Below, piece after piece: positions 2,940 through 27,460 of a stretch of 28,060 nucleotides of DNA. The notes beneath the pieces were generated by a model. The model had not been told where the DNA came from and searched no databases. It saw nothing but the letters and a program-made list of their open reading frames with translations. The DNA is from a virus. The DNA lies in the IMG/VR virus record IMGVR_UViG_3300027907_000040, positions 1 to 28,060 of that record; one strand, given 5' to 3'. The first letter of the stretch is position 1. Every line of letters begins with the position of its first letter. Both the position numbers and the translations under genes were made by a program.

Positions 2940-4054
2940 CCAACGGGCCTCGCGTACCTTCTGCCCGGCCCCCAGAAGATCGGCCGCCGGCGCATCCCGT
3001 AGGGGTTGTGTGCGTTCAGGAAGGCGTCCACGAGGGAGAGCCCGGTCTGCCATCCCTTTAGCCGGTCGAAGGACCAGGCGGTGAACGAAGCCTTCTCGAT
3101 CACGATCCCCTGGCGGGAGATGCGCGTGACGCCCGTGGGGAGCGCGCAGGTGGAGTCACCATTGCACGCCTTGTACAGCTCGCAGGCCAGTTGCGCCGCC
3201 GCCGCCTGTCCCTCGGCGGGAGGATTGGCCCCGTATCCGTAGGAGACGGAGAAGGTTCCTTCCTCGGTGTCCTCGAGCGCGAGGTCCTGACAGGAGGGCC
3301 AGAAGGAGCCGTCCACGCGGGTCAGGTAGCGGTTCTCGTCCAACCGAAACTGATCGCCCATGAGCGCCACGCCGTCGATCTTGACCTCGGTGACGAGTTG
3401 CACCGGATACCCGGAGAGGAGCACGCGCGAGAGGCAGCCGCAGCCGCAGTTGCGCGAGTCCGCGCCCGCTCCCCAGAAGCTGCCTGTCCAGATCAGCCTC
3501 GAGCCGCCGGAGGCATAGGCCAGGCGCTGCGCGGGGAAGCAGGAGCAGTTGTCGCGGCAGGGACGCACGGTGATCGGCCCGCACAGCCCGGAGAACTTCT
3601 TGCCCGAAAGCTGGTAGAGCACATTCTGAGCCTGCACCGCCACGTCGTCGAAGATCGTCCCCGCGCTCGCCTCCACCCCACAGCACTCCATCACATCGTC
3701 CCCGGTGATCCAGTCCGTGCAGGGGCCGAGATTGGACGGCGGGGCGATGGGCTGGTCGGAGACGAAGATCTCCTCCGTAGCCGTCGTGTCGATGCCGGGA
3801 TCGGTGGCGCTCGCGCCCTCCCAGGTGATGACGTAGGGAGAGAGGGCAGAGAAGGAGGGAAAGACGCCCAGGTAGCGGTAGACGGCGAAACCATCGTCTC
3901 CGCACTCGATCTGGAGGATGCCGTTGGTGGTCTGGGGGACGACGTTGTTGCCGTCGCCGTCGTCGATGGTGATGGTGATGATCCCCACCTGACCGCAGGC
4001 AAAGCCTTCGGCAAACGCCTCCATCGGCTGTCCGGGATAGCCTGGTCCGATCAT
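2936..4054 (-). CDS. Head-to-tail adaptor
   Basis: This 372-residue protein has two parts. Residues 1 to about 110 look like an Ig/beta domain with ITITIDDGDGNN and YVITWEGAS. The rest matches the Cys-rich actinophage head-tail adaptor type: VLYQLSGKKFSGLCGPITVRP, a cluster of Cys (PCRDNCSCF, RNCGCGCLSR), then helices ending in LVDAFLNAHNPYGMRRRPIFWGPG. Adaptors sit under the portal and connect the head to the tail. The ATG at 4054 overlaps the TGA of the upstream glycosyltransferase (ATGA). An upstream ATG at 4117 would only add residues read from the other gene. Its place after the fibre genes, rather than next to the capsid, is unusual. The extra N-terminal beta domain may be decorative. 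Confidence 0.72.
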   Translation of the reverse strand: MIGPGYPGQPMEAFAEGFACGQVGIITITIDDGDGNNVVPQTTNGILQIECGDDGFAVYRYLGVFPSFSALSPYVITWEGASATDPGIDTTATEEIFVSDQPIAPPSNLGPCTDWITGDDVMECCGVEASAGTIFDDVAVQAQNVLYQLSGKKFSGLCGPITVRPCRDNCSCFPAQRLAYASGGSRLIWTGSFWGAGADSRNCGCGCLSRVLLSGYPVQLVTEVKIDGVALMGDQFRLDENRYLTRVDGSFWPSCQDLALEDTEEGTFSVSYGYGANPPAEGQAAAAQLACELYKACNGDSTCALPTGVTRISRQGIVIEKASFTAWSFDRLKGWQTGLSLVDAFLNAHNPYGMRRRPIFWGPGRRYARPVG

Positions 4055-4881
4055 CTTTCCTCCAGGAAGAGAACGTCCTCGTTTGGCAGTGTACGAGCGA
4101 TATCGGCCGCTGCCCAAAGCGGCTCCGCGCGCCAGGGTCTCCGCTCGTACGCCTTGAGCAGCGCCGTTACGTTACGAGAGAGCTTGGCCGCCTGATACTC
4201 CGCGTACCAGGCCTCCTCCTCAAAGGAGTTCATGGAGGAGCGCTGCTGGTACATCTCGATCGCCTTCGGGATGCAGCCGAGGAAGCGGTAGCACTCGGCG
4301 GAGTAGAACACCGCTCGAGGATCGCCTGCCTCCACGTCCGGCTTGAGCAGGGTGAGGTAGTGGTCGAACTTCGTGACCGGGTGCCGGGAGGAGCCGTGGT
4401 GGGTCACGTCCAGGCCGAGCAGGTGGCGGGTTCTGACCGCGGAGGTGTCCAGGTACTCGTGGACGCGGCCGATGTAGCGCCAGTCTCCGTCTCCGCGGAT
4501 GAGGAGCGGTCGCCGCCAGGTCGTGCCCGAGTCGTGGATCGCTACCATCCACGCGCCCACCCCTGGATCCGAATCTTCCGACAGGAAGGTGAGGAGCAGC
4601 GGGTGGGCTTCCACTGTCTCGTCGGCATCCAGGCACAGGAGCCAGGGAGCCTTGTCCTTCGCAGCCGCCAGCGCTTCGTTGCGGCTGGTCGCGAAGTCCT
4701 CGAACTCGCTCTCCACGAGCTCGCCGGGGATCCCCTTCAACTCTTTGCGGATGATCTCCTTCGTCTTGTCCGTCGAGCCGGTGTCCACGATCGTCCAGTG
4801 GGAGAGAAGGGGCTTGACCGAGCGCAGGCAGCGCCCGATGAAGTTCTGCTCGTTCCGGCAGATCAGAACGAGCCCGATCAC
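4051..4881 (-). CDS. Family 2 glycosyltransferase with helical C-terminus
   Basis: This 276-residue enzyme starts at a GTG that overlaps the previous stop (GTGA) and reads MIGLVLICRNEQNFIGRCLRSV. It has the GT-A fold signature: a first strand with the nucleotide-binding NE pair, the second strand TIVDTGSTDKTKEI, and LLCLDADETVEAH as the metal/sugar-nucleotide DxD motif. HGSSRH and KFDHYLTLLKPD follow. From about residue 185 it becomes a TPR-like helical tail (FYSAECYRFLGCIPKAIEMY). That architecture is seen in glycosyltransferases that act on proteins or peptides. It is coupled to a 104-residue beta protein upstream and to the head-tail adaptor downstream. The acceptor and the sugar are unknown; modification of virion proteins is my inference. 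Confidence 0.88.
   Translation of the reverse strand: MIGLVLICRNEQNFIGRCLRSVKPLLSHWTIVDTGSTDKTKEIIRKELKGIPGELVESEFEDFATSRNEALAAAKDKAPWLLCLDADETVEAHPLLLTFLSEDSDPGVGAWMVAIHDSGTTWRRPLLIRGDGDWRYIGRVHEYLDTSAVRTRHLLGLDVTHHGSSRHPVTKFDHYLTLLKPDVEAGDPRAVFYSAECYRFLGCIPKAIEMYQQRSSMNSFEEEAWYAEYQAAKLSRNVTALLKAYERRPWRAEPLWAAADIARTLPNEDVLFLEER
4164..4176. repeat. Site 1 of the dispersed motif (reverse orientation)
   Basis: The plus strand reads CCGTTACGTTACG inside the glycosyltransferase gene. With flanks it is a 17-base exact match (AGCGCCGTTACGTTACG) to the copy near 23124. In both genes it encodes RNVTAL. Confidence 0.4.
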
Positions 4882-5192
4882 GTCACGAGGTCCCCGTCGA
4901 TGGTGAGAGTGATGACGTTGTTCGTGCCCGCGAACGCCTGAATCGTCTCGTTGTTCGCGAGCGCGTGGTAGCACCAGAACGTCTTGGCGCTGTCGGCTGC
5001 GATGGAGAGGCCGTCATACAGCCTCGTCCCGGAGGCATCCGCGCCGATGGAGAGCGTGAAGTCCACCGCTGAGGCGGTCGGGTTGGACACGTGAATCGAG
5101 CGCACGAGGGTCGTGCCCGAGGACGTGAACTTCGTAGCTGCGGTGTTCGAGACGAGCGCCGGGCCTGCCAGTCTCGATGGAGTGCGGGGCAT
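4878..5192 (-). CDS. Small beta-rich virion protein (duplicated domain, copy A)
   Basis: This 104-residue protein, MPRTPSRLAGPALVSNTAAT at its start, is all strands and turns. It is clearly homologous to the C-terminal 97 residues of the LamG-like protein at 23825: LSIGADASGTRLYDG here against LSIGTDATATRVYDD there, both preceded by IH(V/A)SNP and followed by a final strand. A more distant copy is the 107-residue protein at 9851. The function is not known; a fibre tip, collar or decoration domain would fit. AGGAGG overlaps the stop of the previous gene and gives a strong start. Its stop overlaps the GTG start of the glycosyltransferase downstream, a partnership repeated at 23825/23828. Confidence 0.75.
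   Translation of the reverse strand: MPRTPSRLAGPALVSNTAATKFTSSGTTLVRSIHVSNPTASAVDFTLSIGADASGTRLYDGLSIAADSAKTFWCYHALANNETIQAFAGTNNVITLTIDGDLVT

Positions 5193-6742: not shown

Positions 6743-6743
<1 letters not shown>
6471..6743 (-). CDS. Small protein of unknown function after the long collagen fibre
   Basis: This 90-residue protein starts MTVPPGVTFPTRRFVATRLD and ends RVWDSRVSGPL. It is not a family I recognise. The pattern is a short beta strand region followed by one helix (ENARNFIAANPGVYIIYGPC) and a closing strand. Its ATG overlaps the TGA of the 674-residue fibre gene (TGATG), and its own stop overlaps the ATG of the 422-residue protein. Translation is therefore coupled on both sides. 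This placement suggests a fibre-associated structural or assembly role, but nothing in the sequence fixes it. Confidence 0.65.
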
Positions 6744-9287
<2,544 letters not shown>

Positions 9288-9291: not shown

Positions 9292-9854
9292 AGCGGAGCC
9301 TTCACTGTCAGGGCGATGATGGGCACGCGCGTATGCGTGATCGGATCGGTCATGTTCGTGAGCGGGTTGGGGAGGGGGAAGGAGTCGGTGGCTGTCTCCT
9401 TCATCCCGAGCATGGTCATAAATCCGAGCGTCGCCGCGTGTGACCAATAGCGCGCGCGGTTGGCCGTCGTTGAGTCGATGTTCTTCACGAGGTAATAGCG
9501 TCCGGCTGCAATCGGCGTATCCGTAACGTTGACGAAGTTCCACAGCGAGCTCGTACCGGCTGCGGAGGAACCCGCCGAGACGAGACGGTTCCATGCTTCG
9601 TCATAGATGCCGATGTCGTGGTTCGATCCAGCTCCTGACCCGTTCCGCCAGCCGAGGTGTGTGACCACCAGCGCCTCGGTGATGGTGAAAGGGACGGCGC
9701 AGGGATCATTGGCAGACGGCCACGACCCGGAAACCGTAGTCCCGCCCATTGACATCACAGAGGCACACCCGAACTCCTCGTCTGCTGTGGTGATGATGCG
9801 TCCCTGGCGCGCAAGCCGCGGGCGAGCCATGTCAACGGGAGCGATGGTTCTCAT
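9288..9854 (-). CDS. Beta-rich fibre-associated protein (tandem paralogue)
   Basis: This 188-residue protein begins MRTIAPVDMARPRLARQGRI. A beta domain follows with SGSWPSANDPCAVPF, THLGWRNGSGAGSNHDIGIY and IAAGRYYLVKNID. It shares its core with the 175-residue product of the next gene: WPSAN about 28 residues before a DIG(I/L)YD motif, then an AG(R/A)xYY strand. The C-terminal portion (PLPNPLTNMTDPITHTRVP) has no match in the paralogue. The ATG overlaps the TGA of the upstream 107-residue gene (ATGA). It is probably a tail or fibre structural protein, named only by context. Confidence 0.7.
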
Positions 9855-10174
9855 GTATTCGTCACTCCCATGAGCGAGAAGCTAAGGGTGGCGAGGGTCG
9901 CATACACCATGAGTCGGTCGTCATCGGTCATGGTGATTGCGTCGATGGAGATGACCTGTCCTCCCTCGATGGGAGTGTCGTAGGCGAGATACTGCTTGTC
10001 CCCGGTCGCCTCGTTGTTGACCTCGATGGAGACACGGAAGGAGGTAGCCGTCGCGCTTCGGTTGCAGATGTTGAGTCGCCCTACGAAACTCGCGCCATCG
10101 GGCACGTCGTAGATCTCGGTGAGCGTGGCTGCGCTTGGATTGAGCTGCTGGGGGGAGATGATGGTTTGCGTCAT
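9851..10174 (-). CDS. Small beta-rich virion protein (duplicated domain, copy B)
   Basis: This 107-residue protein starts MTQTIISPQQLNPSAATLTE. It shows the same order of strands as the 104-residue protein at 4878 and the C-terminus of the protein at 23825: an opening QL...AATL strand, a central NI(C/H)xxS block, SIEVNNEATGDKQYLAYD, then a last hydrophobic strand LATLSFSLMGV. It is the most divergent of the three. The gene begins one base after the stop of the 329-residue collagen-like gene, so it is almost certainly co-translated with it. Function unknown; a cap or collar domain for the fibres would fit. Confidence 0.7.
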   Translation of the reverse strand: MTQTIISPQQLNPSAATLTEIYDVPDGASFVGRLNICNRSATATSFRVSIEVNNEATGDKQYLAYDTPIEGGQVISIDAITMTDDDRLMVYATLATLSFSLMGVTNT

Positions 10175-10175
10175 G

Positions 10176-11165
<990 letters not shown>

Positions 11166-12728: not shown

Positions 12729-14519
12729 TTACTCGCAGGTCCTTGCCGTCCCCGCGGGCGGGAACTGACCGACCGGGCAGATGTCCGAAGTGACCCAGAG
12801 AGCCGACTGCGCCGGCGCGACTCGGGCCACGTTGCGGAACCGCTCCCCGAAGATCTCGAAGTCGTTGACGTGGTTGAGCGTGGAGTCACGGACGATTCCG
12901 AGCTCCAGCGTTCCCATGTCCAGACCGATGAACGCGCCCTGCGGATGCAGCGCCCACTGCACTTCGTTCGGCAGACCGTCGATGGCAGCCGCAGTCTGCG
13001 CCGAGTCCGGCAGCTGCGTGGTGCCCGTGGTCGGGCTGTCGAGGTAGAAGACCGGATCGATGCCCAGGTCACGCAGGTAGGCGATCAGCTCGCCCTGGCT
13101 GCGGAACCTGTTGCCGTCGATGGTCTGCACCGTGTCCAGCGAGAGCATGTCCGCGAACCAGTAGGGCAGGTAGGCGGCGAAGCGTGCGCCCCGCGGCATC
13201 CTGAAGCGCCCCATGATCCCGAACTTCGCCTTCACGATGGCATCCACCACGTAGACGTAGGCAGAGAGGGTCTCGGCCCCGTTGGTGACGTTGATCGAGA
13301 GCGCCTTCAGCCTGTCCAGCATGAACGTCTCGCTCGTGCGCGAGAGCGCGGCCATCGTGAGCTCGTTCTCGTGCCGGATCCTCTCGGGCCACGAGATCGC
13401 GTTCAGATTGCCGAATTCTCGACAGTGCGCCAGGATCTGCACCGCCGTGTCGGTGTAGTCCGCGCAGTCCATGTCCTGACAGGACTTGGTTGCGAAGGTT
13501 CCCCCGAGCGCGTCGTCGTCCGCCGAGATGTTCGAGATCGCGGTCGTGATGTCCGCGATGTACGTCGACTCGGGGATGGACACCGCACCGCGCACTGCCC
13601 GGAACTTGGGCAGGGCATCCCACACCGGCTCGGCCTCGGTCGCGAAGTTGACCATGCCGTAGAACGGGGTGGGCGGTGCGCACAGACCGCCGGAGGCGGC
13701 CAGTGAGTAGCGGCCGATCCCGCCGGGGACGGAGGCCACGATGACCTCTGCCAGCTTCTCGGCGTCCGATGCCCGGTCGTTCGTGAGCGTGCGGTCGTCC
13801 GAGTATGGGATCTCTGCGCGTGCGACCGGGACGGCGTGACCGCCCTGGCGGTAGCCGCCACCGTGCGGCGACTTGGGGATGTGCTGCACGGAGCGCATCG
13901 CGTCCTGCATGGCCGCGGCCAGCGAGGAGGGATCGAACGGCTCCGCGTTGGAGCGGGCCATCGGGCCGAAGGGGAGAAGGGCAGCGGTTGCGCCCTCATC
14001 TGCCATCTGCACCGGCAGTCTCTCCGGGGAGGGCATCGGTGCCGAGCGCCGCATCCTCACGGGCTCGGGCGGGGCGGCGTCCGCCAGGACGAGCTCGCGC
14101 TCCTCCACCACGGACTCCTCTTCGTCTCCTGAGCCTTCGTCGTCCCCGTCGTCCGGGGCGGGCTCTTCCTCGGCCACGACCTCGAGCGGCGTGTCCTGAT
14201 CGCCGGGATCCTCGTCGGTGATGACCTCCTCCGGCTCTGCGAACAACTCGGAGAACGCGGAGGTGCGCTTGCTCTTCTCTGCCGAGTACGTCTCGGCGGC
14301 TTCGACGCGCGAGTTCTGCTCGAGGACGAGCTTCTTCGCCTGGTCGATGCCGCGGTCGTACTCCGCCATGATCTGCTCGGCGGTCCGGCCGGCGGTGAAC
14401 TTCTCGTCCTCGTCGTCGATCAGGACAGCCGCATCGCGGTGCTCCTGGATGAGCGAGGTCAGTTCCTCGTCGGTCAGCCCCGAGAGATCGTCCTGAATCT
14501 CGGGAAACAGCGGATCCAT
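12729..14519 (-). CDS. Major capsid protein with N-terminal scaffold-like domain
   Basis: This 596-residue protein starts MDPLFPEIQDDLSGLTDEEL. Residues 1 to about 90 are a charged helical or coiled-coil segment. Residues about 95-150 are very acidic (DDGDDEGSGDEEESVVEERE). Basic and Pro-rich linkers run to about 240. The rest is a capsid-fold region: YSLAASGGLCAPPTPFYGMV, AVSIPESTYIADITTAI, then FMLDRLKALSINVTNGAETL, a helical stretch, and FRMPRGARFAAYLPYWFADM. The C-terminus is Cys-containing (SDICPVGQFPPAGTARTCE). The N-terminal part looks like a fused scaffold (delta) domain as in HK97-type capsids, probably removed by the protease encoded upstream. AAGGAG lies before the ATG and a leader of 115 bases precedes it, so it may have its own strong expression signal. 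Confidence 0.85.
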   Translation of the reverse strand: MDPLFPEIQDDLSGLTDEELTSLIQEHRDAAVLIDDEDEKFTAGRTAEQIMAEYDRGIDQAKKLVLEQNSRVEAAETYSAEKSKRTSAFSELFAEPEEVITDEDPGDQDTPLEVVAEEEPAPDDGDDEGSGDEEESVVEERELVLADAAPPEPVRMRRSAPMPSPERLPVQMADEGATAALLPFGPMARSNAEPFDPSSLAAAMQDAMRSVQHIPKSPHGGGYRQGGHAVPVARAEIPYSDDRTLTNDRASDAEKLAEVIVASVPGGIGRYSLAASGGLCAPPTPFYGMVNFATEAEPVWDALPKFRAVRGAVSIPESTYIADITTAISNISADDDALGGTFATKSCQDMDCADYTDTAVQILAHCREFGNLNAISWPERIRHENELTMAALSRTSETFMLDRLKALSINVTNGAETLSAYVYVVDAIVKAKFGIMGRFRMPRGARFAAYLPYWFADMLSLDTVQTIDGNRFRSQGELIAYLRDLGIDPVFYLDSPTTGTTQLPDSAQTAAAIDGLPNEVQWALHPQGAFIGLDMGTLELGIVRDSTLNHVNDFEIFGERFRNVARVAPAQSALWVTSDICPVGQFPPAGTARTCE

Positions 14520-14634: not shown

Positions 14635-15282
14635 CTACCAGGAAAATACTGAGGCGTCCTCAGCGAAGAGAAGCGCGGTGCGGCCCTTGTCCTTACCCCA
14701 GTGCGCCTTGCGCCCGATCAGGCTCTTCTCCTCGTCAGGGTGCTGCACGATCGAGGGCACCGTGAAGCGCACCGTCTGCTTGGTGAAGGTGGCCCACCGG
14801 CCCGCCACGTGATCGTCTGAGCGCGGCTGCTTGTGCCCGAGCCTGCGCGGGTTTGTCTCCGTCCAGCGTAGGAACTCGCGCGCCTTGTGCTTCGGCCACA
14901 GAACGCCCACGACCGGCATGAACTCCATCTGCCGAAACTCGGTCGTGATGTAGCGCTGTCCCTTCGTCTGCGCTGCGAGTGCCAGGCGAGAGAGGCGGCG
15001 AGGGAGCCAGGAGAGGTAGAGCACGGTCACGGTGTCGGGGTTCGTCTCCGCGATCTGCTCCACGGCAGCGGAGAAGTGAAGCGACACTTTCGCGTCGTCC
15101 TGAACGACGAGCAGGTGGCTCGCTTCTACTTTCGTATCGAGGCAACGGCGATACCCGGCCCACGGATTCGGCGGCTCGCTCGCGTGCAGGCAGACCTCAG
15201 TGGGGAGGCCGAGCGAGTCGGCCAGCGGCTGATGCAGGTGAGCGCGGCTGGGGTGGCCCTGGATGCGGGCTACGACTCGCAG
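14635..15282 (-). CDS. Glycosyltransferase-like protein in the head operon
   Basis: The conserved-looking part begins LRVVARIQGHPSRAHLHQPL and continues for about 215 residues. It includes HLLVVQDDAKVSLHF (a DD motif after a hydrophobic strand, as in GT-A enzymes), VTVLYLSWLP, SDDHVAGRWATFTKQTVRFT and PSIVQHPDEEKSLIG. The PSxVQH...SLIG ending is typical of short phage glycosyltransferases with a family-25-like look. No ATG, GTG or TTG lies near the logical start. The nearest fitting codon is the CTG at 15282, overlapping the end of the protease gene by 13 bases, with GGAG about 11 bases before it. The frame extends to 15486, but that part reads as the shadow of the protease gene. It sits between protease and capsid genes, an odd place for a sugar enzyme. 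Substrate unknown. Confidence 0.68.
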   Translation of the reverse strand: MRVVARIQGHPSRAHLHQPLADSLGLPTEVCLHASEPPNPWAGYRRCLDTKVEASHLLVVQDDAKVSLHFSAAVEQIAETNPDTVTVLYLSWLPRRLSRLALAAQTKGQRYITTEFRQMEFMPVVGVLWPKHKAREFLRWTETNPRRLGHKQPRSDDHVAGRWATFTKQTVRFTVPSIVQHPDEEKSLIGRKAHWGKDKGRTALLFAEDASVFSW

Positions 15283-15980
15283 ATCGCGGCCATCTCCGCG
15301 GACAGTTCCTTCCGCCGCCGCCGCTGAGTGGCGGAGAAGGATGCGACGATGGGCTCGGGCGAGAGGATCAGGGTTCGGATCTCTCCGGAAGCTGCGAGAG
15401 CCAGTTGCGCACGAGGAATGGGAAAGCCCGGTACGGGGACTGCAAGGGCAGCCACCAGTTCCAGATTCCCATTGAACGCTCTCCAATCACCAGATACGGA
15501 GTTAGCTCTGAGATCGCGAAGTTGCTCGGGAGAGAGATCGGAGCGTAGAACACCAGATGCCCAGATTCCGTGTCGTCCGTTGGTGGCCCGGACGAAGGCA
15601 CCTACCGCCCCCGTATCGTCGTAGTGCCGGGTGGCAGCGGTGAGATCCGCACTCGCCGCGGCGTGACCAGTGGCGAGGACGATCTTGCCAACGGCGATGC
15701 GGCCTCCGTCGTCGGTCTCGAGCTCTCCGAGGTGGAACTGTCGATAGTCCGTGACTGACCGGGGAGCCACAACGCACTCGTCGAAGGCTCCGGCGGAGAG
15801 TCCGACGTGGCAGCTTTCCCAGGGAGCCAGATGTCCATAGACGGCCCCTCCCTCCTCGTAGGTCATGGGCGTGACGCGATCCGGCTCCGGTCGCTCGAAG
15901 AGCGAGCGGGACGGCTTGAGCGGAGCGACGGCACTGACGAGACTCGCCATCTTCACGTACTCCTCCGGGGTAATCGTCAT
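15270..15980 (-). CDS. Capsid maturation (prohead) protease
   Basis: This 236-residue protein carries the hallmarks of actinophage prohead proteases: VYGHLAPWESCHVG (candidate catalytic His50 or His58), then GKIVLATGHA, a HYDDTG segment, and LRANSVSGDWRAFNGN with candidate Ser161 and Ser163. VAALAVPVPGFPIPRAQ follows. Such serine proteases cut the scaffold part from the capsid protein during head maturation. The neighbouring capsid has a long acidic N-terminus that fits as substrate. The gene begins nine bases after the portal stop, with GGAGGGTGAG before the ATG, and is followed by an overlapping glycosyltransferase. Catalytic residues are assigned by family pattern only. Confidence 0.82.
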   Translation of the reverse strand: MTITPEEYVKMASLVSAVAPLKPSRSLFERPEPDRVTPMTYEEGGAVYGHLAPWESCHVGLSAGAFDECVVAPRSVTDYRQFHLGELETDDGGRIAVGKIVLATGHAAASADLTAATRHYDDTGAVGAFVRATNGRHGIWASGVLRSDLSPEQLRDLRANSVSGDWRAFNGNLELVAALAVPVPGFPIPRAQLALAASGEIRTLILSPEPIVASFSATQRRRRKELSAEMAAICES

Positions 15981-15989: not shown

Positions 15990-17786
15990 CTACTGTGCCA
16001 CGGCGACGGAGACTTCCCGCGCCTTCTCCACCTGGGCCACGAATCCTGACGGTAGCTCCGGCTGTGCGTCGTCGTACAGCGTGCGCGCCGCGTACACCTC
16101 CAGCATCTGCTGAAGCGCGGTCGCGTGCGCGGGCTTCAGCCCCTCGTCCTCCAGGTAGCCGCGGAAGCCGACCGCGGTTCCGGCGGTGAGGTTGAAGGCG
16201 TCAACGCCCAGACCCTCCACCCGCTCCTGCCCGAGCAGGGAGGCGACGAGGGAGTTGGGAGCGCCGTCGGTCAGCGCCTCGCACTCGTCACAGGTCTGCT
16301 GGTAGCGGCGAAGGCGCGCGCCGGCGGTCTCGCGGCAGCGGCGCAGGGCCATCTTTGCGGCACCCTTGACCTCAGCGGAAGCAGTGCGCGATTCCTGACG
16401 GGATACGAGCCTCGCGCCGGGATCGGGAGGCCCGTCCGCAGCGTTGCCGTTCCCGTTGCCGTTCTGGGGGATAGGGCCGCGCTGCGGGATGACGAGCTCG
16501 CCGTCCTCCAGCTCGACCTCCTGCCGGATCTTGAGCGCCGCCAGAAACTCCTTCTCCTCGTCGGTGGGGGCCATGTCCTCGGGGATGCCCTTCATCTTCC
16601 GGTAGCCGGGGAAGCCGATGGCGATCCTGTCCAGCGCCTTGTCCGCGTCCTCGGTTCGATCGGGGGAGATGACCACCTGCGAGTCGTCCATCCCGATCAC
16701 GACCTCCGGCCACTCCGCGTAGCCATCCTCTTCCAGACCTGGACGCAGGTACACCTCGGCCAGCTCGTCCGCAAACTGCTGCGCCTTTACGATCCCGTAC
16801 GAGCGCCACATGTCGTGCATGACCTGCTTCGCCGTCCAGTGGTTCGCGTCGGTCATCCCGCGTAGCGCCTCCGGCGGCATGTCGAAGGCAAGAGCCAGCC
16901 GCTCGATGCACTCCTTGCGTAGCCCTTGCTCCAGGTAGTCGGTCGCGGGATCGTGCGTCTTGACCCAGGTGAAGCGGTCCGCATACTCGTACGGCGGGGT
17001 GTAGAGGTACGGCACCCGCGCCTCCGGTGACATGGGGTTCTCAGTCTGGTTGGTCGCGTGGTCGATGTAGCCGGAGAGGAAGACGTTGTTCTCGGGATCC
17101 TCGTCACCGCCCTCGGGCTGCTGCGGATCCTCGGGGATGCCTTCGAGTGGCATCACCACGACACCGTTGGTCATGCGAGAGAGGGCGGTGGACATGACCG
17201 ACTTCGTGAGCACCAGCAGCTCCTCCGCGATCAGCGTGATCGGCTTCATGGGCGAATCCGCGATCTCGGAGTGCTGCGGCGAGGGAGTCCACAGGCGGTA
17301 GGCCACGCCGCGGTCGGAAGTCTCCTTCTTGTTCGCGTCCAGGCGAACCGCGGTGCCATCCTCCAGCACCTTGATCTCCTCGTTCCAGAGGCAGCGCCAG
17401 CGCTCGTCAGGCTCGTCCAGGCGATAGCCGAAGAGCATCAGCTCGCCCGTGATCCACATGAGCCGGCCGTACTGGAACTGAAGCTGCGTGCGTCCTCCGC
17501 CCGGATCCTGGATTCGGTTCAGGCGCTCGACGGGCGGGCCGCTCTCGATCCGCTCCAACTTCCCGTCGGGGAGGCGGCGAGCGGGGAAGTAGGTGACGCG
17601 GCTCATCATGCGTGCGATGAACTGCGAGGCCGCGCGGCACTCGCCTATCTCGTCGCAATACAAGAAGGCGCGCGTCTGCCACGGCTCCTCGAGCCGCTTC
17701 ACGTACGAGGACTGCGTGCGGTTGCCGACTCGGACGGCGGATGCCGTCAGCGCACGTCTAGGGACGCGCCGAGTGGGTAGCGCCAC
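15990..17786 (-). CDS. Portal protein
   Basis: This 598-residue protein starts at GTG and reads MALPTRRVPRRALTASAVRV. It has the usual portal order: an N-terminal helix with ECRAASQFIARMMSRVTYFP, a wing region with MWITGELMLFGYRLDE, the segment YRLWTPSPQHSEIADSPMKP, the stem-like LERLALAFDMPPEALRGM analogue (KECIERLALAFDMPPEALRG), then NHWTAKQVMHDMWR. The C-terminal third is charged and linker-rich (QNGNGNGNAADGPPDPG), followed by a helical domain with a CDEC pair. The portal is the DNA channel at one head vertex and docks the terminase. It lies upstream of the protease and capsid as usual, but is separated from the terminase gene by about 8 kb of sugar and lysis genes. Confidence 0.88.
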   Translation of the reverse strand: MALPTRRVPRRALTASAVRVGNRTQSSYVKRLEEPWQTRAFLYCDEIGECRAASQFIARMMSRVTYFPARRLPDGKLERIESGPPVERLNRIQDPGGGRTQLQFQYGRLMWITGELMLFGYRLDEPDERWRCLWNEEIKVLEDGTAVRLDANKKETSDRGVAYRLWTPSPQHSEIADSPMKPITLIAEELLVLTKSVMSTALSRMTNGVVVMPLEGIPEDPQQPEGGDEDPENNVFLSGYIDHATNQTENPMSPEARVPYLYTPPYEYADRFTWVKTHDPATDYLEQGLRKECIERLALAFDMPPEALRGMTDANHWTAKQVMHDMWRSYGIVKAQQFADELAEVYLRPGLEEDGYAEWPEVVIGMDDSQVVISPDRTEDADKALDRIAIGFPGYRKMKGIPEDMAPTDEEKEFLAALKIRQEVELEDGELVIPQRGPIPQNGNGNGNAADGPPDPGARLVSRQESRTASAEVKGAAKMALRRCRETAGARLRRYQQTCDECEALTDGAPNSLVASLLGQERVEGLGVDAFNLTAGTAVGFRGYLEDEGLKPAHATALQQMLEVYAARTLYDDAQPELPSGFVAQVEKAREVSVAVAQ

Positions 17787-21091: not shown

Positions 21092-21658
21092 TCAGAGCGT
21101 TCGGAGGGCGCGCTCGTACTCGTTCCAGTCCGACTTCAGAGTGTTCAGGCGGCCGGTCATCTCGTGGTGATGGATGAAGAGGTAGTCGCGGGCGATGACG
21201 GTGAGGATCCCGATCCTCCGACCGAGCGCGCCAAAGTAGTAGTCACCCATGTAGTGGGTCTCCAGCATCGGCCCCATTTCCCAGAACCACTCCTTCGGAG
21301 CGAAGGGAATCCTCGAGAACTCCTCCGGCGTACCATCCGGGCGCTCCTGATCGTCCCAGCCGCAGGACTCCAGCGTTCCGTCCGGCTTGAGGATGCGAGG
21401 AGCGGGCAGGAAGCCGTGATTGATCTTCGACCAGGCAGCTTCGTACCAGCCGGGCTGCGGCTCGAGGTCGTCCGCGCTCAGGTGGATGTAGTCGCCCGTC
21501 GCCTCCGCGATCCCCTCGTTCCAGGCGATCCCGCAGGTGGGCCGATCCTTGTAGATCAGCCACTCGATCTTCGCGTTGGTCGTGAAGTTGTAGGCGGCGA
21601 TCGTGCGCGCGAGCGAGTTCTCGCGGCCTGTGATCGTGGGGATGACGACCGAGATCAA
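21092..21658 (-). CDS. Family 2 glycosyltransferase
   Basis: This 188-residue enzyme starts at a TTG that overlaps the previous stop (TTGA) and reads MISVVIPTITGRENSLARTI. The GT-A features are a first strand SVVIPT, WLIYKDRPTCGIAWNEGIAE, then DYIHLSADDLEPQPGWYEAA with the ADD metal/nucleotide motif. GDYYFGALGRRIGIL follows. It is shorter than a typical 230-300 residue family-2 enzyme but has the whole nucleotide-binding half. The longer frame to 21889 reads as a shadow of the neighbour. Fourth in a row of coupled glycosyltransferases. Confidence 0.83.
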   Translation of the reverse strand: MISVVIPTITGRENSLARTIAAYNFTTNAKIEWLIYKDRPTCGIAWNEGIAEATGDYIHLSADDLEPQPGWYEAAWSKINHGFLPAPRILKPDGTLESCGWDDQERPDGTPEEFSRIPFAPKEWFWEMGPMLETHYMGDYYFGALGRRIGILTVIARDYLFIHHHEMTGRLNTLKSDWNEYERALRTL

Positions 21659-22299
21659 CGAGTAGCAGGAGCGGAGTCGGGCGGGCGCTTGATGTTGCGG
21701 TCGCCCCAGGAGCCCGCGTAGTAGGGGTCGTCCCATGACTCCTGCGAGAGCGAGCGGATGCAGGGCCGCTTCACGCGCGTCCAGGTGTAGCCCATCTCCA
21801 CGACCGCGGGAGAGAGGAAGGAGTCCTCGGAGTAGCCGGGCGGGTACTCGGGCCAGGGCCGCTCGTCGTAGCGCAGGCCCTGATCCCACAACTCGCGGCG
21901 GATGACGCAGTTGCCTCCCACGTTCCAGCGCGCGTACATCTCCTCCTCGTCCGTGCGCAGACCCACCTGCCCGACCTTCTCGGACTGAAAGATGCGCTCC
22001 ACCTCTTCACACCAGCCGGGGAGGAAGGCGAAGTCGTTGTCGGCTCGGTGGAGATGCGTCGTGTCGGCCTTCATCCAATGTGACCAGCCACGGTTGGCGG
22101 CGAATCCTGGGTAACGATTCTCGTGGTCCCCGATGAGCGGATAGCCCTTGGCTCTGATCCAATCGGCAGTCCCATCCTGCGATCCGTTGTCATAGACGAC
22201 GAACGCGAAGGGAAGCGTCACCGTCTCCAGGTAGGACTCAATGGCCTGCTTGGTCAACTCCAGGCGGTTGTAGGTGATGAAGACGGTGTGCAGCTTCAT
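21655..22299 (-). CDS. Family 2 glycosyltransferase
   Basis: This 214-residue enzyme starts MKLHTVFITYNRLELTKQAI, the classic family-2 N-terminus. VVYDNGSQDGTADWIRAKGY follows (second strand, uracil-binding Asp), then THLHRADNDFAFLPGWCEEV with a DND motif in the DxD place. GGNCVIRRELWDQGLRYDER and GYSEDSFLSPAVVEMGY supply the acceptor-side Glu-Asp motif (ED). The fold is therefore complete for a small GT-A enzyme. The ATG overlaps the previous stop (ATGA) and its own stop overlaps the next TTG. Donor and acceptor are unknown. Confidence 0.87.
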   Translation of the reverse strand: MKLHTVFITYNRLELTKQAIESYLETVTLPFAFVVYDNGSQDGTADWIRAKGYPLIGDHENRYPGFAANRGWSHWMKADTTHLHRADNDFAFLPGWCEEVERIFQSEKVGQVGLRTDEEEMYARWNVGGNCVIRRELWDQGLRYDERPWPEYPPGYSEDSFLSPAVVEMGYTWTRVKRPCIRSLSQESWDDPYYAGSWGDRNIKRPPDSAPATR

Positions 22300-22925
22300 G
22301 CGTACGTCTCCGGGAAGAGATCGCGCTGCACCTGCTGGTGCATCTGCACCTGCCAGCGACGGTTGCGCCACGCGATCCGGTGCTTGGAGTTGCGGTTCCA
22401 GTAGGCGAAATAGATGGCTCGGCGCACCTTCACGACCTCCGCTCCGGCCTTCCAGCACTTCGCCCACAACGACCAGTCCTCGAACCCGTGCGGGTAGTCG
22501 GAGAAGCCGCCGACCTGCATGAAGAGATCGCGCTCGACGAGCGTGCCCACAACGAGGTAGTTGTTCTTGGAGAGGTCGTTGCCGGATAGGAAGCGCGCCG
22601 GCTGCGGCCTGCCCTTGCGCACATAGGAGACCGCAGGCGTGAGCAGAGGCGGAGTGCCGTCGTCTCTACGCCTCCGCTCGTACGCCTGCTGCATGGCCGC
22701 GAGATAACCGCGGCCAAGTTCGTCGTCCGCGTCCAGAAAGCAGAGCCAGTCGCCCTTCGCCATCTCTGCCAGCGCGTTCCGGGCTTCCGAGATCGTTCCA
22801 TCCAGGGCGTGACCGTCCAGAACCTCGTAGGGCTCCTGCGCGCGGGCCGAAGGGAGGGCGCGCTCGTGGGCGAGCGTCCGCCAGGACTCCTCTCCGTAGG
22901 TGGCAACGAGGATGGAGACATTCAA
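22296..22925 (-). CDS. Family 2 glycosyltransferase
   Basis: This 209-residue enzyme begins at a TTG overlapping the upstream TGA (TTGA) and reads MNVSILVATYGEESWRTLAH. DGTISEARNALAEMAKGDWL and CFLDADDELGRGYLAAM carry the DAD motif of GT-A enzymes. GGFSDYPHGFEDWSLWAKCW contains the acceptor-side FEDW motif. The C-terminus is basic and aromatic (YWNRNSKHRIAWRNRRWQVQ), possibly for membrane or acceptor contact. It is one of the clearest family-2 members here and is translated in one unit with its neighbours. Confidence 0.88.
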   Translation of the reverse strand: MNVSILVATYGEESWRTLAHERALPSARAQEPYEVLDGHALDGTISEARNALAEMAKGDWLCFLDADDELGRGYLAAMQQAYERRRRDDGTPPLLTPAVSYVRKGRPQPARFLSGNDLSKNNYLVVGTLVERDLFMQVGGFSDYPHGFEDWSLWAKCWKAGAEVVKVRRAIYFAYWNRNSKHRIAWRNRRWQVQMHQQVQRDLFPETYA

Positions 22926-23161
22926 ACGTAGTGCTCCTCGAGCCGCGCCAACTCGTCCTGAAGTTCTCCGATCATGGTCTGGAGGTCGTCGCGGATGTCC
23001 ACCTCGGGCTGCTCCAGGGACACTCGCCAGGCGACCGCCAGATCGAGAGCGGTGCGGCGCAGGTGCATGTTGGTCTTCTGGAGTTCGCTGATCGCCTTGC
23101 GCTGACGGCGGGCCAGATCGAGGAGCGCCGTTACGTTACGGAGGTCGTGGATCAGTCTCAT
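22922..23161 (-). CDS. Small coiled-coil protein
   Basis: This 79-residue protein reads MRLIHDLRNVTALLDLARRQ then RKAISELQKTNMHLRRTALD. It continues as helix to LQTMIGELQDELARLEEHYV. Heptad-like spacing of Leu, Ile and Met suggests a coiled coil over most of the length. It lies between two glycosyltransferases; its stop overlaps the TTG of the next one. It might tether or oligomerise the sugar enzymes, or act separately. A longer frame up to 23383 overlaps the upstream gene and is not coding-like. Family not recognised. Confidence 0.65.
   Translation of the reverse strand: MRLIHDLRNVTALLDLARRQRKAISELQKTNMHLRRTALDLAVAWRVSLEQPEVDIRDDLQTMIGELQDELARLEEHYV
23124..23140. repeat. Site 4 of the dispersed motif (reverse orientation)
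   Basis: AGCGCCGTTACGTTACG lies near the start of the coiled-coil gene and is identical over 17 bases to 4160-4176. Confidence 0.4.
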
Positions 23162-23174
23162 GCTCGCGACTATA

Positions 23175-23828
23175 TCACCGCGAGTGGCGGATTGCACGCA
23201 GGCGGGAGGTGAACAGGGCCGCATCTTGATTCGTCTCGCGAAACGCCTTCTCGTAGGTCGGGTCCCACTCTCCCAGGCCCCACACCGGATGCAGGTGCTC
23301 CACCACCGAGCGCTCCGCGAACGCCCACGCGCGCCGACGCTTGGCGAGCTCCACCAGCTCCATGTCCACGTACTGATGGTCATACACCTCCGAGAAGACC
23401 GCGCCCGTCCCGTCCACCGTGCCGCCGCGCTCGCTGAGGTAGGCGCGGGAGATAAGCAGGTGGGTAGCGGTCGTCTTGGCCTTCACACCGGGGTTGTGCA
23501 GGTCGTTGGTGCCGACCACCTGCGCGTTCATCTTCAACGCCTCGCTGTCCCAGCCGGGAGAGAAGCGGATGTCATCGGCCCCGGTGAAGATCCAGGGAGC
23601 GGAGGTGCGCTCGAAGGCCCAGTTGATCTTCCTGGCGAAGTCGGCCCGGCCGGGCTCCCACTCCACCACCCACGTAACGTAACGGTCGTGGACGCGGCAC
23701 TCCTCGGCGGTGTCGTCTCCGGGGGAGCAGATGAAGTAGACCTGGAACTCCGTTTCCGTGGAGCGCTCGAGCGAGTCGATCATGTCGTGCGGAGGCCGGC
23801 GCAGGATCGGCACGAGCACGTCTATCAC
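23175..23828 (-). CDS. Family 2 glycosyltransferase
   Basis: This 217-residue enzyme starts at GTG overlapping the upstream TGA (GTGA) and reads MIDVLVPILRRPPHDMIDSL. VYFICSPGDDTAEECRVHDR is the second-strand region, FARKINWAFERTSAPWIFTG precedes GADDIRFSPGWDSEA (the ADD motif), and FSEVYDHQYVDMELVELAK gives the acceptor-side aspartates. The first glycosyltransferase after the terminase block, it is coupled to the LamG-like protein whose C-terminal domain is shared with the protein coupled to the glycosyltransferase at 4051. Substrate unknown. Confidence 0.85.
   Translation of the reverse strand: MIDVLVPILRRPPHDMIDSLERSTETEFQVYFICSPGDDTAEECRVHDRYVTWVVEWEPGRADFARKINWAFERTSAPWIFTGADDIRFSPGWDSEALKMNAQVVGTNDLHNPGVKAKTTATHLLISRAYLSERGGTVDGTGAVFSEVYDHQYVDMELVELAKRRRAWAFAERSVVEHLHPVWGLGEWDPTYEKAFRETNQDAALFTSRLRAIRHSR
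23673..23685. repeat. Site 5 of the dispersed motif
   Basis: CGTAACGTAACGG lies inside the 217-residue glycosyltransferase gene. It is the exact complement of the 13 bases at 4164. Confidence 0.4.
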
Positions 23829-24844
23829 TCGGGCACCTCGTAGCCGGTGATGGTCAGCACCACCGTCGCTGCCGTTCCCGCCCAGCCCTGAATCTCGTCC
23901 CCAGCCGCCAGGTCGTAGGGATCGTAGGTGGACTCCACAGAGTCACGCGCAAGTGGGAAGTCGTCGTACACCCGCGTCGCCGTAGCGTCGGTTCCGATGG
24001 AGAGGTTGAGATCGACTTCGGAGCCTGAGGGGTTGGAGGCATGGATGTTGAGCACGCGCGCCCGCTTCCCGGTGGGGCAGGTGTAGAGCGTGGCCGCTGT
24101 GCCGGTCAGTTGTGCCGGGCCGAAGAAGCGCTTGTAAGAGATCTCGTCCTCAGGCTCCACCCACCAGGCGGGAGCATCGCCAGGATCGAGCACCGCTCCC
24201 GTAACGGACTCCAGCGCCATCGTCCCGCCAGTGAAGGAGGTCAGCCCTGTGACCGCATCCAGGCGCACCCCCTCGGTGAAGCCCGCGTCCACCCAGGATT
24301 GGTAACCATTGGACAGCTCCTCGATCTCGGCGTCGTTCATCACGGCGTCCTTGATTCCGAAGATGAGCATGTTCACGTCGGCGGGAGAGCCGAAGATGGA
24401 GTCGAGGCCAAGCTGGATCTTGGCCGTGCTAGGTGGTGTCGTCCCGTTCGCGAGCGTGTTCGGAGAGTCCTGGTGGTCCCACCCGTTCGCGAGATCGAAG
24501 CGGTGGTAGCGCGGGGCCACGGCTCCATTGGCCTTCGTCACGGCGCAGATCACCCACTCCCCGATCAGGCCCAGCGTCTCCAGCGCGACCACCGCTGCGG
24601 AGGTGTCGTCCCCTGCCGTCGTGCCCAGAAGGAAGTGCGCGTCGGCGTCACCGGCCACGTACGCGCTCCACCAACGGGTCGTGCCGCCGTCCTCCGAGAC
24701 GAGCAGCGCGTCGTAATTACCGAGCGTGAAGGAGTTGTCCTTGAGCACGATGGCGATCGTGATCGGGCCGGCGGGGATGTCCGCGTTCCCGATCCCGAAT
24801 GTCATCGAGTCATCGCTGCCGTCGAAGAAGACCGAATCGGCCAC
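23825..24844 (-). CDS. LamG-like structural protein with C-terminal duplicated beta domain (copy C)
   Basis: The chosen start is the GTG at 24844 (read as Met), which overlaps the TAG of the upstream gene by one base and opens VADSVFFDGSDDSMTFGIGN. This gives 339 residues. Residues 1-185 are a concanavalin A/LamG-like sandwich: FFDGSDDSM, ITIAIVLKDNSFTLGNYDAL, IGEWVICAVTKANG, then DAVMNDAEIEELSNGYQSW, the usual closing helix of this fold. Residues about 243-339 form the beta domain shared with the proteins at 4878 and 9851. The longer frame to 25411 is a shadow of the upstream gene. Such proteins bind sugars or form fibre heads; here it could bind the host wall or carry phage glycans. Confidence 0.78.
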   Translation of the reverse strand: MADSVFFDGSDDSMTFGIGNADIPAGPITIAIVLKDNSFTLGNYDALLVSEDGGTTRWWSAYVAGDADAHFLLGTTAGDDTSAAVVALETLGLIGEWVICAVTKANGAVAPRYHRFDLANGWDHQDSPNTLANGTTPPSTAKIQLGLDSIFGSPADVNMLIFGIKDAVMNDAEIEELSNGYQSWVDAGFTEGVRLDAVTGLTSFTGGTMALESVTGAVLDPGDAPAWWVEPEDEISYKRFFGPAQLTGTAATLYTCPTGKRARVLNIHASNPSGSEVDLNLSIGTDATATRVYDDFPLARDSVESTYDPYDLAAGDEIQGWAGTAATVVLTITGYEVPE

Positions 24845-26049
24845 TAGCTGATCCCGCCAGTCTCCGCTTCGGCTTCCACCCACACGGTCCCATTCTGGAA
24901 GCGGCGCTCGAAGCGACTTCCATTCTGCGTCTTCGGCCCGAGCGGGGCACCGAGAGGGAGCCGGTCGTAGAGCGGGAGCCACTGGTTGCGGCTTCCGTTC
25001 CACCACGCCATCGCGCCGACGTGCTCTAGCAGCATGGAGCAGAAGAGGTAGTTCCCGATCGCCTCCGAGCCCTGCCAGTGGAAGTGGAAGTCCACGCCGT
25101 TCGTCTCGCAGAAGGCCGGCTCGCGCAGGTTCGGGAGCCACGCTTCGGAGAGAGAGCGCGGGTTCGTCTGCCCGATCGTGTTCCAGAACTCGTCCATGAG
25201 CCCGTCCGCGTGGTCGACGATCAGCGGCCAGAACTCGAGCGCGGAGCCTCCGGTGTCCGAAGGCGCGTAGCCTCCGATGTAGGGCTGCGCGTTCCAGCAC
25301 ACGTACTTTCCCCGCGCATGGAAGTGGCTGTAGACGGCATTGGCAAACGAGGCAAGCGCGGCCTCGTAGGAGGGAATGGGAGCGTTCGCCGGACCCCGGT
25401 AGCGGTCGCACTCACGCCCACCGGACACGGACTTGTATTGCCGCCCGAAGTCGTCGATGAAGATCCCGTCCACGCCCCACTGGTCGACGAGAGCGGAGAC
25501 GTTCGCGATCCACTTCTGCTGATAACCCGGAAGCCCCGGATCACCGAGCGGGACGTTGCCGTAGGCGACGTTTACGAGCTCGTTCCCGGCGGCGTCCTTC
25601 ATCTGCCAGCCGCCGGCGCGCAGCTCCTCGGCGGTGACGCCGTAGTGCCATCCGGTCCACGGCTTGCACGAGATCGCGCTCATGTAGACGAGCGCCTTCT
25701 TCGCCGCGCTCGAGCCTGCTGCTGGTGCGCCGCCCCAGGACGTGAACACGAAGTCGTAGTCCGCGACGTGCGAGATCGGTAGCTCGCCGTTGCCGTCCTT
25801 GAAGTAGGAGACACCCCGCCGGCTCGTGGGCGGCGGGGGAGTGACGGGTGGATAGGTGCCCTCGTCCTCCACCCCGAGCGCCTGGACCACGATCCCGGTT
25901 GCGTTGGCCGCGAAGGTCATGCGCGTGCCCTGGGTCTGCGTCCACTTGCTGACGCCGGCGGCCCGACCGCGATAGCCCGCCGCAGCGCCGGGCACGGGGT
26001 CCCATTCCAGGATCAGTTTAGGAGCGTACTGAACGACGCGGAGCTGCAT
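24844..26049 (-). CDS. Glycosidase-like TIM-barrel protein (GHL15-type)
   Basis: This 401-residue protein starts MQLRVVQYAPKLILEWDPVP after GAGGAGG placed four bases before the ATG. Residues 1-62 look like a fibronectin-type beta domain. A Pro linker (TYPPVTPPPP) follows, then a barrel: RGVSYFKDGNG, DFVFTSWGG, KWIANVSALVDQWGVDGIFI followed by DDFGRQY (Asp199/Asp200), YVCWNAQPYIGG, and GLMDEFWN (Glu287). The GVDGIFIDDFG and MDEFW blocks are those of putative glycosidase families such as GHL15. A cell-wall or capsular polysaccharide target would fit a tail-associated enzyme. The start overlaps the terminase C-terminus by 32 bases. Whether the enzyme is active is not shown by sequence. Confidence 0.75.
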   Translation of the reverse strand: MQLRVVQYAPKLILEWDPVPGAAAGYRGRAAGVSKWTQTQGTRMTFAANATGIVVQALGVEDEGTYPPVTPPPPTSRRGVSYFKDGNGELPISHVADYDFVFTSWGGAPAAGSSAAKKALVYMSAISCKPWTGWHYGVTAEELRAGGWQMKDAAGNELVNVAYGNVPLGDPGLPGYQQKWIANVSALVDQWGVDGIFIDDFGRQYKSVSGGRECDRYRGPANAPIPSYEAALASFANAVYSHFHARGKYVCWNAQPYIGGYAPSDTGGSALEFWPLIVDHADGLMDEFWNTIGQTNPRSLSEAWLPNLREPAFCETNGVDFHFHWQGSEAIGNYLFCSMLLEHVGAMAWWNGSRNQWLPLYDRLPLGAPLGPKTQNGSRFERRFQNGTVWVEAEAETGGIS

Positions 26050-27460
26050 CGGGCCTCCTCACCTTGAACGATGACCACGCCCGAGCGGAGCGGGTCTGTC
26101 GCTTGCGCAGCCAGTTCATGCACTGGCTCCAGGCGTCCACCTGATCGTCGTGGGACTCGTGGGAGCCGTCCATCTGGAAGAGCGCGGCCTCGTCCACGAG
26201 CGAGTGAGTCAGTGCGGGGCAGGAATCGTCCGGGCCGGTCAGATCGTCGTTCATGCGTCCCGGCAGGAAGACGTTGCCCGTCTCCAGGTCGTCGGAGGCG
26301 GCGAGCGCGCGCATCCCCTTGGAGCCCTCCGGTCCCACGATGATCTTCTCCACGCCCCCGAGCTCGCGCTTGAGGTCGGTAATCAGCTCGATCCCGTAGC
26401 CCTGGTTCTCGATCAGGAGCCGGTGCTGGCAGGGCCACAGCCGCCTTGCCCAGCGGCTCATCTCCAGAATCGCCCGTCGTGCCGCGTCGTAGCCCATCTT
26501 GTCCACGCGCGCATCGAGCAGGTAGCGGTTAGCCCGGTCCACGCCCCACGCCTGGATCGCCACGTTGTCCGAGGACTCCTTGTCCTTGAGAGGGGTGTCC
26601 ACGGACACGATCACCCACTGGAAGCGGGGCATCCGCTTCACGAACGCCTCGCTCGACTCGGTGCGCTCGCGCGGAGAGTAGTAGCGCCACCAGGCGCGCT
26701 TGAGGAGGTCTCCCTCCAGGGCCGCGATCCATTCCCCGTCCAACTCCTGCTTTCCGAGCCGGGTGCCGGCGTAGCGCTCGTACAGCTCCTTGACCGCGAT
26801 CTGGTCCAGGTTGTGAACGTTGTCCACGGTGCGGAAGCGCGACACCGGAACCTTCGGATCTTCGACGAGGAGCTTGACCAGGCCATGCCCCATCTTCGGC
26901 GTTCCCGTAACGACGATCTTGGCCGGGTCGTGGCGCACCGCGAAGGCCAGGGACTCGTTCCAGGTACGGTCCCACATCTTCCACAGACCAGCCTCGTCGC
27001 ACCAGGCCGCGCGCAGGTTCTTGCCCTGGATGCGCAGCGCCCCGTCGTCGGCTCCGTCCAGGAAGATCGTGGATCCCGACTTCAGGTGAATCTGCCCGTA
27101 GGTGCGGTTGTACTCGGCGATGCGCGGGCCGGGGAAGCCGCCGAGCACCTGGATGATCCCGCTCGAGGAGGACTCGGCGCAGGTGTCTCGCGCGTCCGCG
27201 AAGGTGGGGGCAACGATCGCGTACTCGCCGGGCTCGTGATCCCCCTCCCAGCCGGCCAGCGTCTCCGCCCCCGTGCGTGTCTTCCCCCCGCCGCGCCCCC
27301 CCTGGCAGAACCACACCCGCCAGTCCCCCTCCGGCGGCACCTGCTCCGGCCGGGCGAGCTCCAGCCAGCGCTCCTTCTGAAGCGCGACCAGGATCTCGCG
27401 CTTTCGCTCCTCGGGCCACTCGCGAACTCGGGCCGGTAGCTCGGAGAGGAGATCGCTCAC
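26018..27460 (-). CDS. terL: Terminase large subunit
   Basis: This 480-residue DNA packaging motor starts at GTG. Its ATPase half has the Walker A motif GGRGGGKT (residues 54-61), a Walker B-like LRAAWCDEAG (Asp155, Glu156) and the coupling motif VVTGTPK (183-189). The nuclease half has VSVDTP (Asp288), LLIENQGYG (Glu351) and HDDQVDAWSQ (about 437-446) with the aspartates that bind metal. It cuts and pumps the phage DNA into the prohead through the portal. No small terminase subunit is recognisable next to it. The only close small genes upstream are a ribbon-helix-helix protein and a 37-residue membrane protein. Confidence 0.95.
   Translation of the reverse strand: MSDLLSELPARVREWPEERKREILVALQKERWLELARPEQVPPEGDWRVWFCQGGRGGGKTRTGAETLAGWEGDHEPGEYAIVAPTFADARDTCAESSSSGIIQVLGGFPGPRIAEYNRTYGQIHLKSGSTIFLDGADDGALRIQGKNLRAAWCDEAGLWKMWDRTWNESLAFAVRHDPAKIVVTGTPKMGHGLVKLLVEDPKVPVSRFRTVDNVHNLDQIAVKELYERYAGTRLGKQELDGEWIAALEGDLLKRAWWRYYSPRERTESSEAFVKRMPRFQWVIVSVDTPLKDKESSDNVAIQAWGVDRANRYLLDARVDKMGYDAARRAILEMSRWARRLWPCQHRLLIENQGYGIELITDLKRELGGVEKIIVGPEGSKGMRALAASDDLETGNVFLPGRMNDDLTGPDDSCPALTHSLVDEAALFQMDGSHESHDDQVDAWSQCMNWLRKRQTRSARAWSSFKVRRPDAAPRRSVRS

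Follow-up and report, generated by a model that had tools for sequence, protein, structure and literature searches.

The 28,060-base IMG/VR record IMGVR_UViG_3300027907_000040 of an uncultivated phage (hereafter the window; G+C ~65%) carries one tightly packed run of minus-strand genes encoding four glycosyltransferases (GT1 to GT4), a small helical protein of 79 residues (P79) and a nucleotide-sugar epimerase. A few mycobacteriophages in culture have been reported to carry glycosylated particles, and we consider it likely, from gene content, conservation and family relationships, that this cassette encodes the glycosylation of virion proteins and is an enlarged relative of the kind found in mycobacteriophage Che8.

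A compact gene run between terminase and portal

Over its whole length the window matches bases 17182-45241 of record G001 (45,241 bases) at 100% identity, and the two were treated as one contig and counted once. From the terminase to the portal gene, which border the cassette region upstream and downstream (Table 1), the minus strand encodes first two proteins, one resembling GHL15-type glycosyl hydrolases and one LamG-like (named by eye), then GT1, P79, GT2, GT3, GT4 and the epimerase, and finally a protein of 51 residues and a lysin-like one that has a peptidoglycan-binding domain. The open reading frames (ORFs) for GT1 to GT4, P79 and the epimerase lie on this strand exactly where the original prediction, an earlier reading of the sequence that described four glycosyltransferases and a coiled-coil protein in one overlapping unit, had placed them. 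Overlaps of 4 bases are present at four junctions (LamG-like/GT1, P79/GT2, GT2/GT3 and GT3/GT4), but GT1 and P79 are separated by 13 bases; the distance between GT4 and the epimerase, when recomputed, was the 12 bases claimed. The start codons are GTG for GT1 (23828), ATG for P79 (23161), TTG for GT2 (22925), ATG for GT3 (22299), TTG for GT4 (21658) and GTG for the epimerase (21079). All four of the predicted glycosyltransferases are real, but the window encodes two more, designated GT5 and GT6.

Four distantly related cassette glycosyltransferases

The curated PF00535 cut-off (23.3 bits) was exceeded by GT2, GT3, GT4 and GT6, with GT1 and GT5 falling below it. GT1 gave no credible match in the Pfam scan but does match a glycosyltransferase family, phrog_14945, and a profile of GT1 compared with solved structures found no convincing relative by sequence. 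Its AlphaFold 2 (AF2) model, predicted with a mean local distance difference test score (pLDDT) of 93.9, has a GT-A fold, for which the best match was heparosan synthase (Z 17.9, root mean square deviation 2.7, 194 residues), with SpsA at Z 17.2 and WrtF, TarS, TarP and GalNAc-T2 among the other fold relatives. The ADD at residue 84 of GT1 is a DXD-like motif, and the relatives in G009, G011 and G013 carry ATD at that place. Among solved structures, the GT2 profile came nearest to GmaR and other glycosyltransferases and the GT3 profile to chondroitin synthase and teichoic acid protein F, in both cases with modest E-values.

Pairwise global identity among GT1 to GT4 is 21-29%, and a profile comparison of three of them indicated distant kinship only. 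Together with their separation in the phylogeny described below, these values rule out near-identical paralogues and bear out the earlier view that the enzymes are distinct rather than recent duplicates; judged by these comparisons, GT1 to GT4 are old, separate families. It is plausible that they would act as consecutive steps in the assembly of one glycan. A tblastn search of GT1 against isolate phages returned no match.

A fixed core order in related phages

Relatives were collected by searches with GT1 to GT4 and with a GT3 profile and were then mapped with profiles, giving 35 rows that represent 34 distinct records (individual records and loci are named by G and L numbers). GT1, GT2 and GT3 are present together in 25 of the 34, within the sequence covered; the remaining nine are without at least one of the three or are incomplete. 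Among the 25 core-bearing records the order is GT1-GT2-GT3 in 24 and GT2-GT1-GT3 in one, always on one strand, and the cassette usually stands just past the terminase gene. Because relatives were mostly recruited by similarity to GT2 or GT3, the presence of these two genes was selected for; gene order, GT1 (bar three loci) and P79 were not. The near-duplicate pairs G007/G008 and L062/L063 were kept as separate records in the counts and aligned once, and G009 and G010 look alike too.

In a FastTree phylogeny, the 23 GT1, 23 GT2, 32 GT3 and 19 GT4 sequences each formed one clan, with support of 0.998, 0.997, 0.996 and 0.958, respectively. This tree was built without the duplicates L063, L011 and L073 and without matches that scored less than 100 bits or were no longer than 140 residues, and it counts the window's own contig twice (window and L057). 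By these measures the GT1-GT2-GT3 core is old and is conserved beyond chance as separate clans in a fixed order. A degenerating insertion, the alternative attached to the original prediction, is ruled out by the retention of gene order and reading frames in the relatives, and the comparison of gene order recommended there thus points to one conserved unit, which the epimerase often accompanies.

A genome scan with GT3 also found two contigs (L055 and L056) of one Saccharibacteria metagenome-assembled genome at 35%. L056 additionally holds relatives of the epimerase and of GT1, and both are possibly phage contigs in a Saccharibacteria bin.

GT5 and the link to virion glycosylation in Che8

Among the records fetched at full length, all nine that bear the cassette and include the portal-capsid region (window, G002, G004, G005 and G009 to G013) encode GT5. 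It adjoins the capsid gene in most of the nine and lies ~2 kb away in G009. Since GT5 homologues align over about 14647-15279 only, its true start is probably near 15279. The best family for GT5 is phrog_854 (E 2.3e-13), which is also the best family for Che8 gp110 (E 1.1e-99), and a GT5 profile made from four sequences scored Che8 gp110 at 41 bits, compared with 10.5 for the best of 2000 shuffles (1646 scored). GT2 and Che8 gp108 in turn both match phrog_14775 and phrog_8858. According to passages in PMC12363180, PMC11256854 and PMC11652166 on the work of Freeman et al. 2023, gp108-gp110 of Che8 are mycobacteriophage virion glycosylation genes, and PMC12363180 describes Che8 gp110 and Corndog gp38 as essential for capsid glycosylation.

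The window thus resembles Che8 in having a short overlapping glycosyltransferase run and in the family memberships that GT5 shares with gp110 and GT2 with gp108. The two differ in position: in Che8 the genes lie close to the right end of the genome, in the window between terminase and portal as well as close to the capsid gene. They differ also in content: the window has an epimerase and the EEH-tail hairpin P79 besides its six glycosyltransferases, whereas the part of Che8 that was examined encodes three glycosyltransferases, gp108 ending in a methyltransferase-family part.

The capsid protein of the window matches 637 isolate records, most of them phages of Mycobacterium (399) and Gordonia (139), and because of this an actinobacterial host is likely. 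Most matches to isolate phages start near residue 155-260, leaving a long N-terminal part without a match there.

Placements in three phages of other types lend what we regard as independent support to a virion link. In G014, relatives of the epimerase and GT4 lie two and three genes past a capsid-like gene (capsid assigned by eye); in Microcystis phage Mae-JY09, the four genes after the annotated capsid gene include a relative of GT4 and a gene resembling the epimerase (49.8 bits); and in L081, relatives of GT1, GT2 and GT3 follow ORFs that resemble head genes (by eye). Among known systems, Caudovirales GX15bay (MK557849) comes close in having a glycosyltransferase run upstream of terminase and portal, including one enzyme 38% identical to GT2, but its gene set is different, and in the first 34.7 kb of its 52 kb no match to GT1 or P79 was found at the thresholds used.

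The epimerase and the variable sugar genes

Structures in the PDB related to the epimerase include dTDP-glucose dehydratase, UDP-glucose 4-epimerase and others of several specificities, and for this reason its sugar cannot be named. GT4, the epimerase and further genes vary among the relatives, the epimerase often travelling with the cassette. Other variable cassette genes encode methyltransferases (G002 and G009), an amidotransferase resembling asparagine synthase (PF00733; G002 and G006) and, in G002, a second epimerase. In G009 they also include those for UDP-glucose dehydrogenase and for a further glycosyltransferase-like protein that falls just below cut-off. These variable genes fit sugar supply and sugar decoration. 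Directly after GT3, G009 also encodes a papain-family-like protein (L045 7466-8287; PF00112 just above cut-off), with look-alikes in G011 and G013.

P79, a small helical protein with a conserved EEH tail

The AF2 model of P79 is a helical hairpin formed by residues 2-48 and 54-78 (pLDDT 91.4, predicted template modelling score 0.66), so that coiled coil, as the protein had originally been called, is a fair description of the predicted structure. It is conserved in frame: compared with the G004 homologue over 79 codons, differences number 27, 17 and 36 at codon positions 1, 2 and 3, respectively. The first seven members were chosen by position and all end in LEEH followed by one to four residues. 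The profile made from these seven was then used for searching and detected members outside its training set in L064, L066, L067, L070, L071 and L074 (E 2.7e-9 to 6e-17). A weak match in L062/L063 (E 0.0013) has the tail EEY, and all other newly detected members end in EEH and a short tail. In an alignment of the 14 distinct sequences both Glu residues are invariant and the His is present in 13, and a profile of all 14 scored its weakest member, itself part of the training set, at 67.6 bits, with 9.5 bits for the best other ORF among the loci and contigs searched.

P79 occurs in 16 of the 25 core-bearing distinct records, always inside the cassette, and, because the other nine are without it, is not strictly needed. 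On a GT1-GT3 tree covering 22 records, parsimony accounts for its distribution with three changes, in keeping with prolonged vertical inheritance and two losses. The only matches of P79 among isolate phages were three at E 4 to 9, and its relative from L066 had none; our searches of the open-licence literature likewise found no description of a small helical protein belonging to a glycosylation cassette of a phage. Conservation thus points to a real ORF-encoded family that is apparently unnamed and undescribed. A role as glycan acceptor is disfavoured, no Ser, Thr, Tyr or Asn being invariant among the 14 sequences, and a transmembrane protein is unsupported as a rule, since the top 19-residue Kyte-Doolittle means among the 14 were 1.23, 1.19 and 1.19, with 0.45 for the window member.

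In four relatives (Table 1), the gene for a second small conserved protein of ~68-81 residues (by eye; motifs e.g. LTGGIVLAGGELPKL) separates either P79 from GT2 or GT2 from GT3.

Collagen-like fibres and GT6

Two collagen-like fibre proteins of the window, A and B, are rich in Thr at the third position of their Gly-X-Y triplets (Table 1), where Lys and Arg are almost absent, and the gene for GT6 lies ~1.9 kb downstream of that for fibre A. Just three of the fetched contigs, the window's record, G004 and G011, were found to encode long Gly-X-Y fibres; among the same contigs GT6 is confined to the first two, the fibres of G011 occurring without it. Because only two records show the pairing, we do not claim a link between GT6 and the fibres. 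There is a parallel in Clostridioides difficile, where, as part of PMC7157674 describes, SgtA, encoded beside bclA3, adds N-acetylglucosamine to Thr of Gly-Pro-Thr repeats; the likeness, by analogy, would be a glycosyltransferase gene near a Thr-rich collagen-like protein, but that protein belongs to a spore coat there and to a phage fibre here, and the GT6-fibre pair is seen in just two distinct records. The window's own phage may possibly carry phage-made glycosylated collagen, given fibres A and B and the nearby GT6.

The family phrog_6320 was matched in 5 of 16 records (the window accounting for two of them, G000 and G001, and G012 contributing a single weak match), and it is not specific, because its control matched in three bacterial genomes. 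By eye, window positions 4878-5192 and 9851-10174 and the C-terminus of 23825-24844 encode similar C-terminal domains, perhaps a knob shared by fibre or decoration proteins.

Table 1. Positions of the features discussed, in the window unless another record is named (aa, amino acids; E, E-value; HMM, hidden Markov model; SDR, short-chain dehydrogenase/reductase)
Feature	Position	Strand	Basis
GT1, 217 aa, GT-A fold glycosyltransferase, ADD motif at residue 84	23175..23828	-	phrog_14945 E 5e-5; AlphaFold model
P79, 79 aa, small helical protein, conserved C-terminal EEH tail	22922..23161	-	alignments, HMM specificity, AF2 model
GT2, 209 aa, GT family 2, DADD motif, TTG start	22296..22925	-	PF00535 E 4e-8; phrog_14775, phrog_8858
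GT3, 214 aa, GT family 2, ADND motif	21655..22299	-	PF00535 E 1e-7; alignment of relatives
GT4, 188 aa, GT family 2, ADD motif, TTG start	21092..21658	-	PF00535 E 1.4e-6
Nucleotide-sugar epimerase/dehydratase (SDR), 299 aa	20180..21079	-	PF01370 E 3e-43; phrog_540; GxxGxxG and YxxxK
GT5, phrog_854 glycosyltransferase, 115 bases from major capsid gene	14635..15486	-	phrog_854 E 2.3e-13
Major capsid protein, 596 aa, candidate acceptor	12729..14519	-	phrog_777 E 2e-40; matches actinobacteriophage capsid proteins
GT6, 276 aa, beta-1,4-glycosyltransferase-like	4051..4881	-	phrog_13126 E 7e-21 (longer ORF to 4974); PF00535
Collagen-like fibre A, 674 aa, candidate acceptor	6743..8767	-	Thr at Y in 124/158 Gly-X-Y triplets
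Collagen-like fibre B, 329 aa, candidate acceptor	10176..11165	-	Thr at Y in 36/49 triplets
Terminase large subunit, upstream border of cassette region	26018..27460	-	phrog_38 E 1e-28
Portal protein, downstream border	15990..17786	-	phrog_776 E 5e-67
Methyltransferase-like insertions, plus helicase-like ORF, in different places	L029 4827-5159 (G002); L043 988-2205 (G003); L053 5143-6102 and 6090-7460 (G007)		by eye
Second small protein, not in window cassette	L032 4778-5017; L053 7638-7883; L070 4849-5088; L059 1983-2189		by eye

Discussion

Gene content, conservation, gene order, one fold and family links to the Che8 enzymes are directly established here, and from them we infer the acceptors, the identity of the sugars, the order of the steps and the role of P79. 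The two additional glycosyltransferases, the Che8 link and the Thr-rich fibres suggest what the glycan is put on. Most likely, conserved core steps and exchangeable outer sugars together coat particle proteins with a short sugar chain. The Che8 gp110-like GT5 and/or one of the cassette enzymes would attach the first sugar to Ser or Thr of structural proteins, whether capsid, tail tube or, in the window phage, the collagen-like fibres with their many Thr residues. The core sugars would then be the work of GT1, GT2 and GT3, and GT4 would add an outer sugar whose donor would come from the adjacent epimerase. Relatives would exchange the outer part by means of their amidotransferase-like, methyltransferase and UDP-sugar dehydrogenase genes, giving each phage its own glycan end, and the P79 hairpin would probably hold two enzymes together or stabilise one.

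Several points weigh against virion glycosylation. The similarity of GT5 to phrog_854 is weak (51 bits), and a tblastn search of GT5 against isolate phages gave no match. The Thr-rich fibres had to be rejected as a general acceptor, because several long relatives are without them. DNA methyltransferase-like ORFs, recognised by eye from DPPW, SPPYW and SPPF motifs, stand between the glycosyltransferase genes of some relatives (G002, G003 and G007) and could indicate DNA instead, the sugar being built on hypermodified phage bases against host nucleases; a D12-class-like ORF, below cut-off, is found elsewhere in the 45 kb record G001. However, the methyltransferase ORFs sit at differing positions and are absent from the window cassette, Tet/JBP enzymes were matched in none of 16 records (the control being silent), and no base-hydroxylating enzyme was found by Pfam in 10 of the ~45 other G001 ORFs or was evident by eye in the rest. 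The cassette position and the Che8 links also favour virion proteins over DNA, and we regard DNA modification as improbable. Passages in PMC10202952 propose such host-surface modification as one role of freshwater actinophage glycosyltransferases, and the fold relatives of GT1 include the wall teichoic acid enzymes TarP and TarS, both of which would suit alteration of a host surface glycan to block superinfection. The cassette nevertheless lies inside a structural module, from terminase to portal, and GT5 and GT2 share families with Che8 enzymes, which leaves a host-surface target improbable.

For P79, there is an appreciable chance, somewhat below even, that it is unrelated to the glycosyltransferases and is simply located in a conserved region of morphogenesis genes. 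Shared gene order is possible for neighbours of any function, P79 is missing from more than a third of the core-bearing records, and its place within the cassette shifts, preceding GT1 in L062/L063 and adjoining GT2, away from GT1, in L074. On the other side, every record that carries P79 has it within the stretch from terminase to GT2, none was found elsewhere in the loci and contigs searched by the profile that separates members from other ORFs so widely, and few changes suffice to explain its distribution on the GT1-GT3 tree. For the scaffold role suggested in the original prediction the findings cut both ways: the family is specific to this cassette and has no invariant residue suited to a glycan acceptor, but nine of the 25 core-bearing records do without it. 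Recruitment of glycosyltransferases by a coiled-coil protein is known from O-antigen assembly, where passages in PMC11231755 describe it for WbdD, a much larger enzyme. A more specific idea, which we put forward as rather doubtful, is that the EEH-tail hairpins form a dedicated adaptor family whose tail docks one glycosyltransferase and so organises a multi-enzyme complex for virion glycosylation; in the window phage this complex, with GT6, might also decorate the Thr of Gly-X-Thr fibres to yield phage-made glycosylated collagen.

Virion glycosylation is a known trick of some phages, and the cassette most likely represents an unusually elaborate form of it. What looks like an elaborate and conserved form of glycosylation, combining a stable core with swappable outer sugar chemistry, is spread through uncultivated phages, with an apparently undescribed family of small proteins tied to it. 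The cassette offers concrete genes for studying how a multi-sugar coat may be placed on phage proteins, and what part a short helical protein may have in such a pathway.

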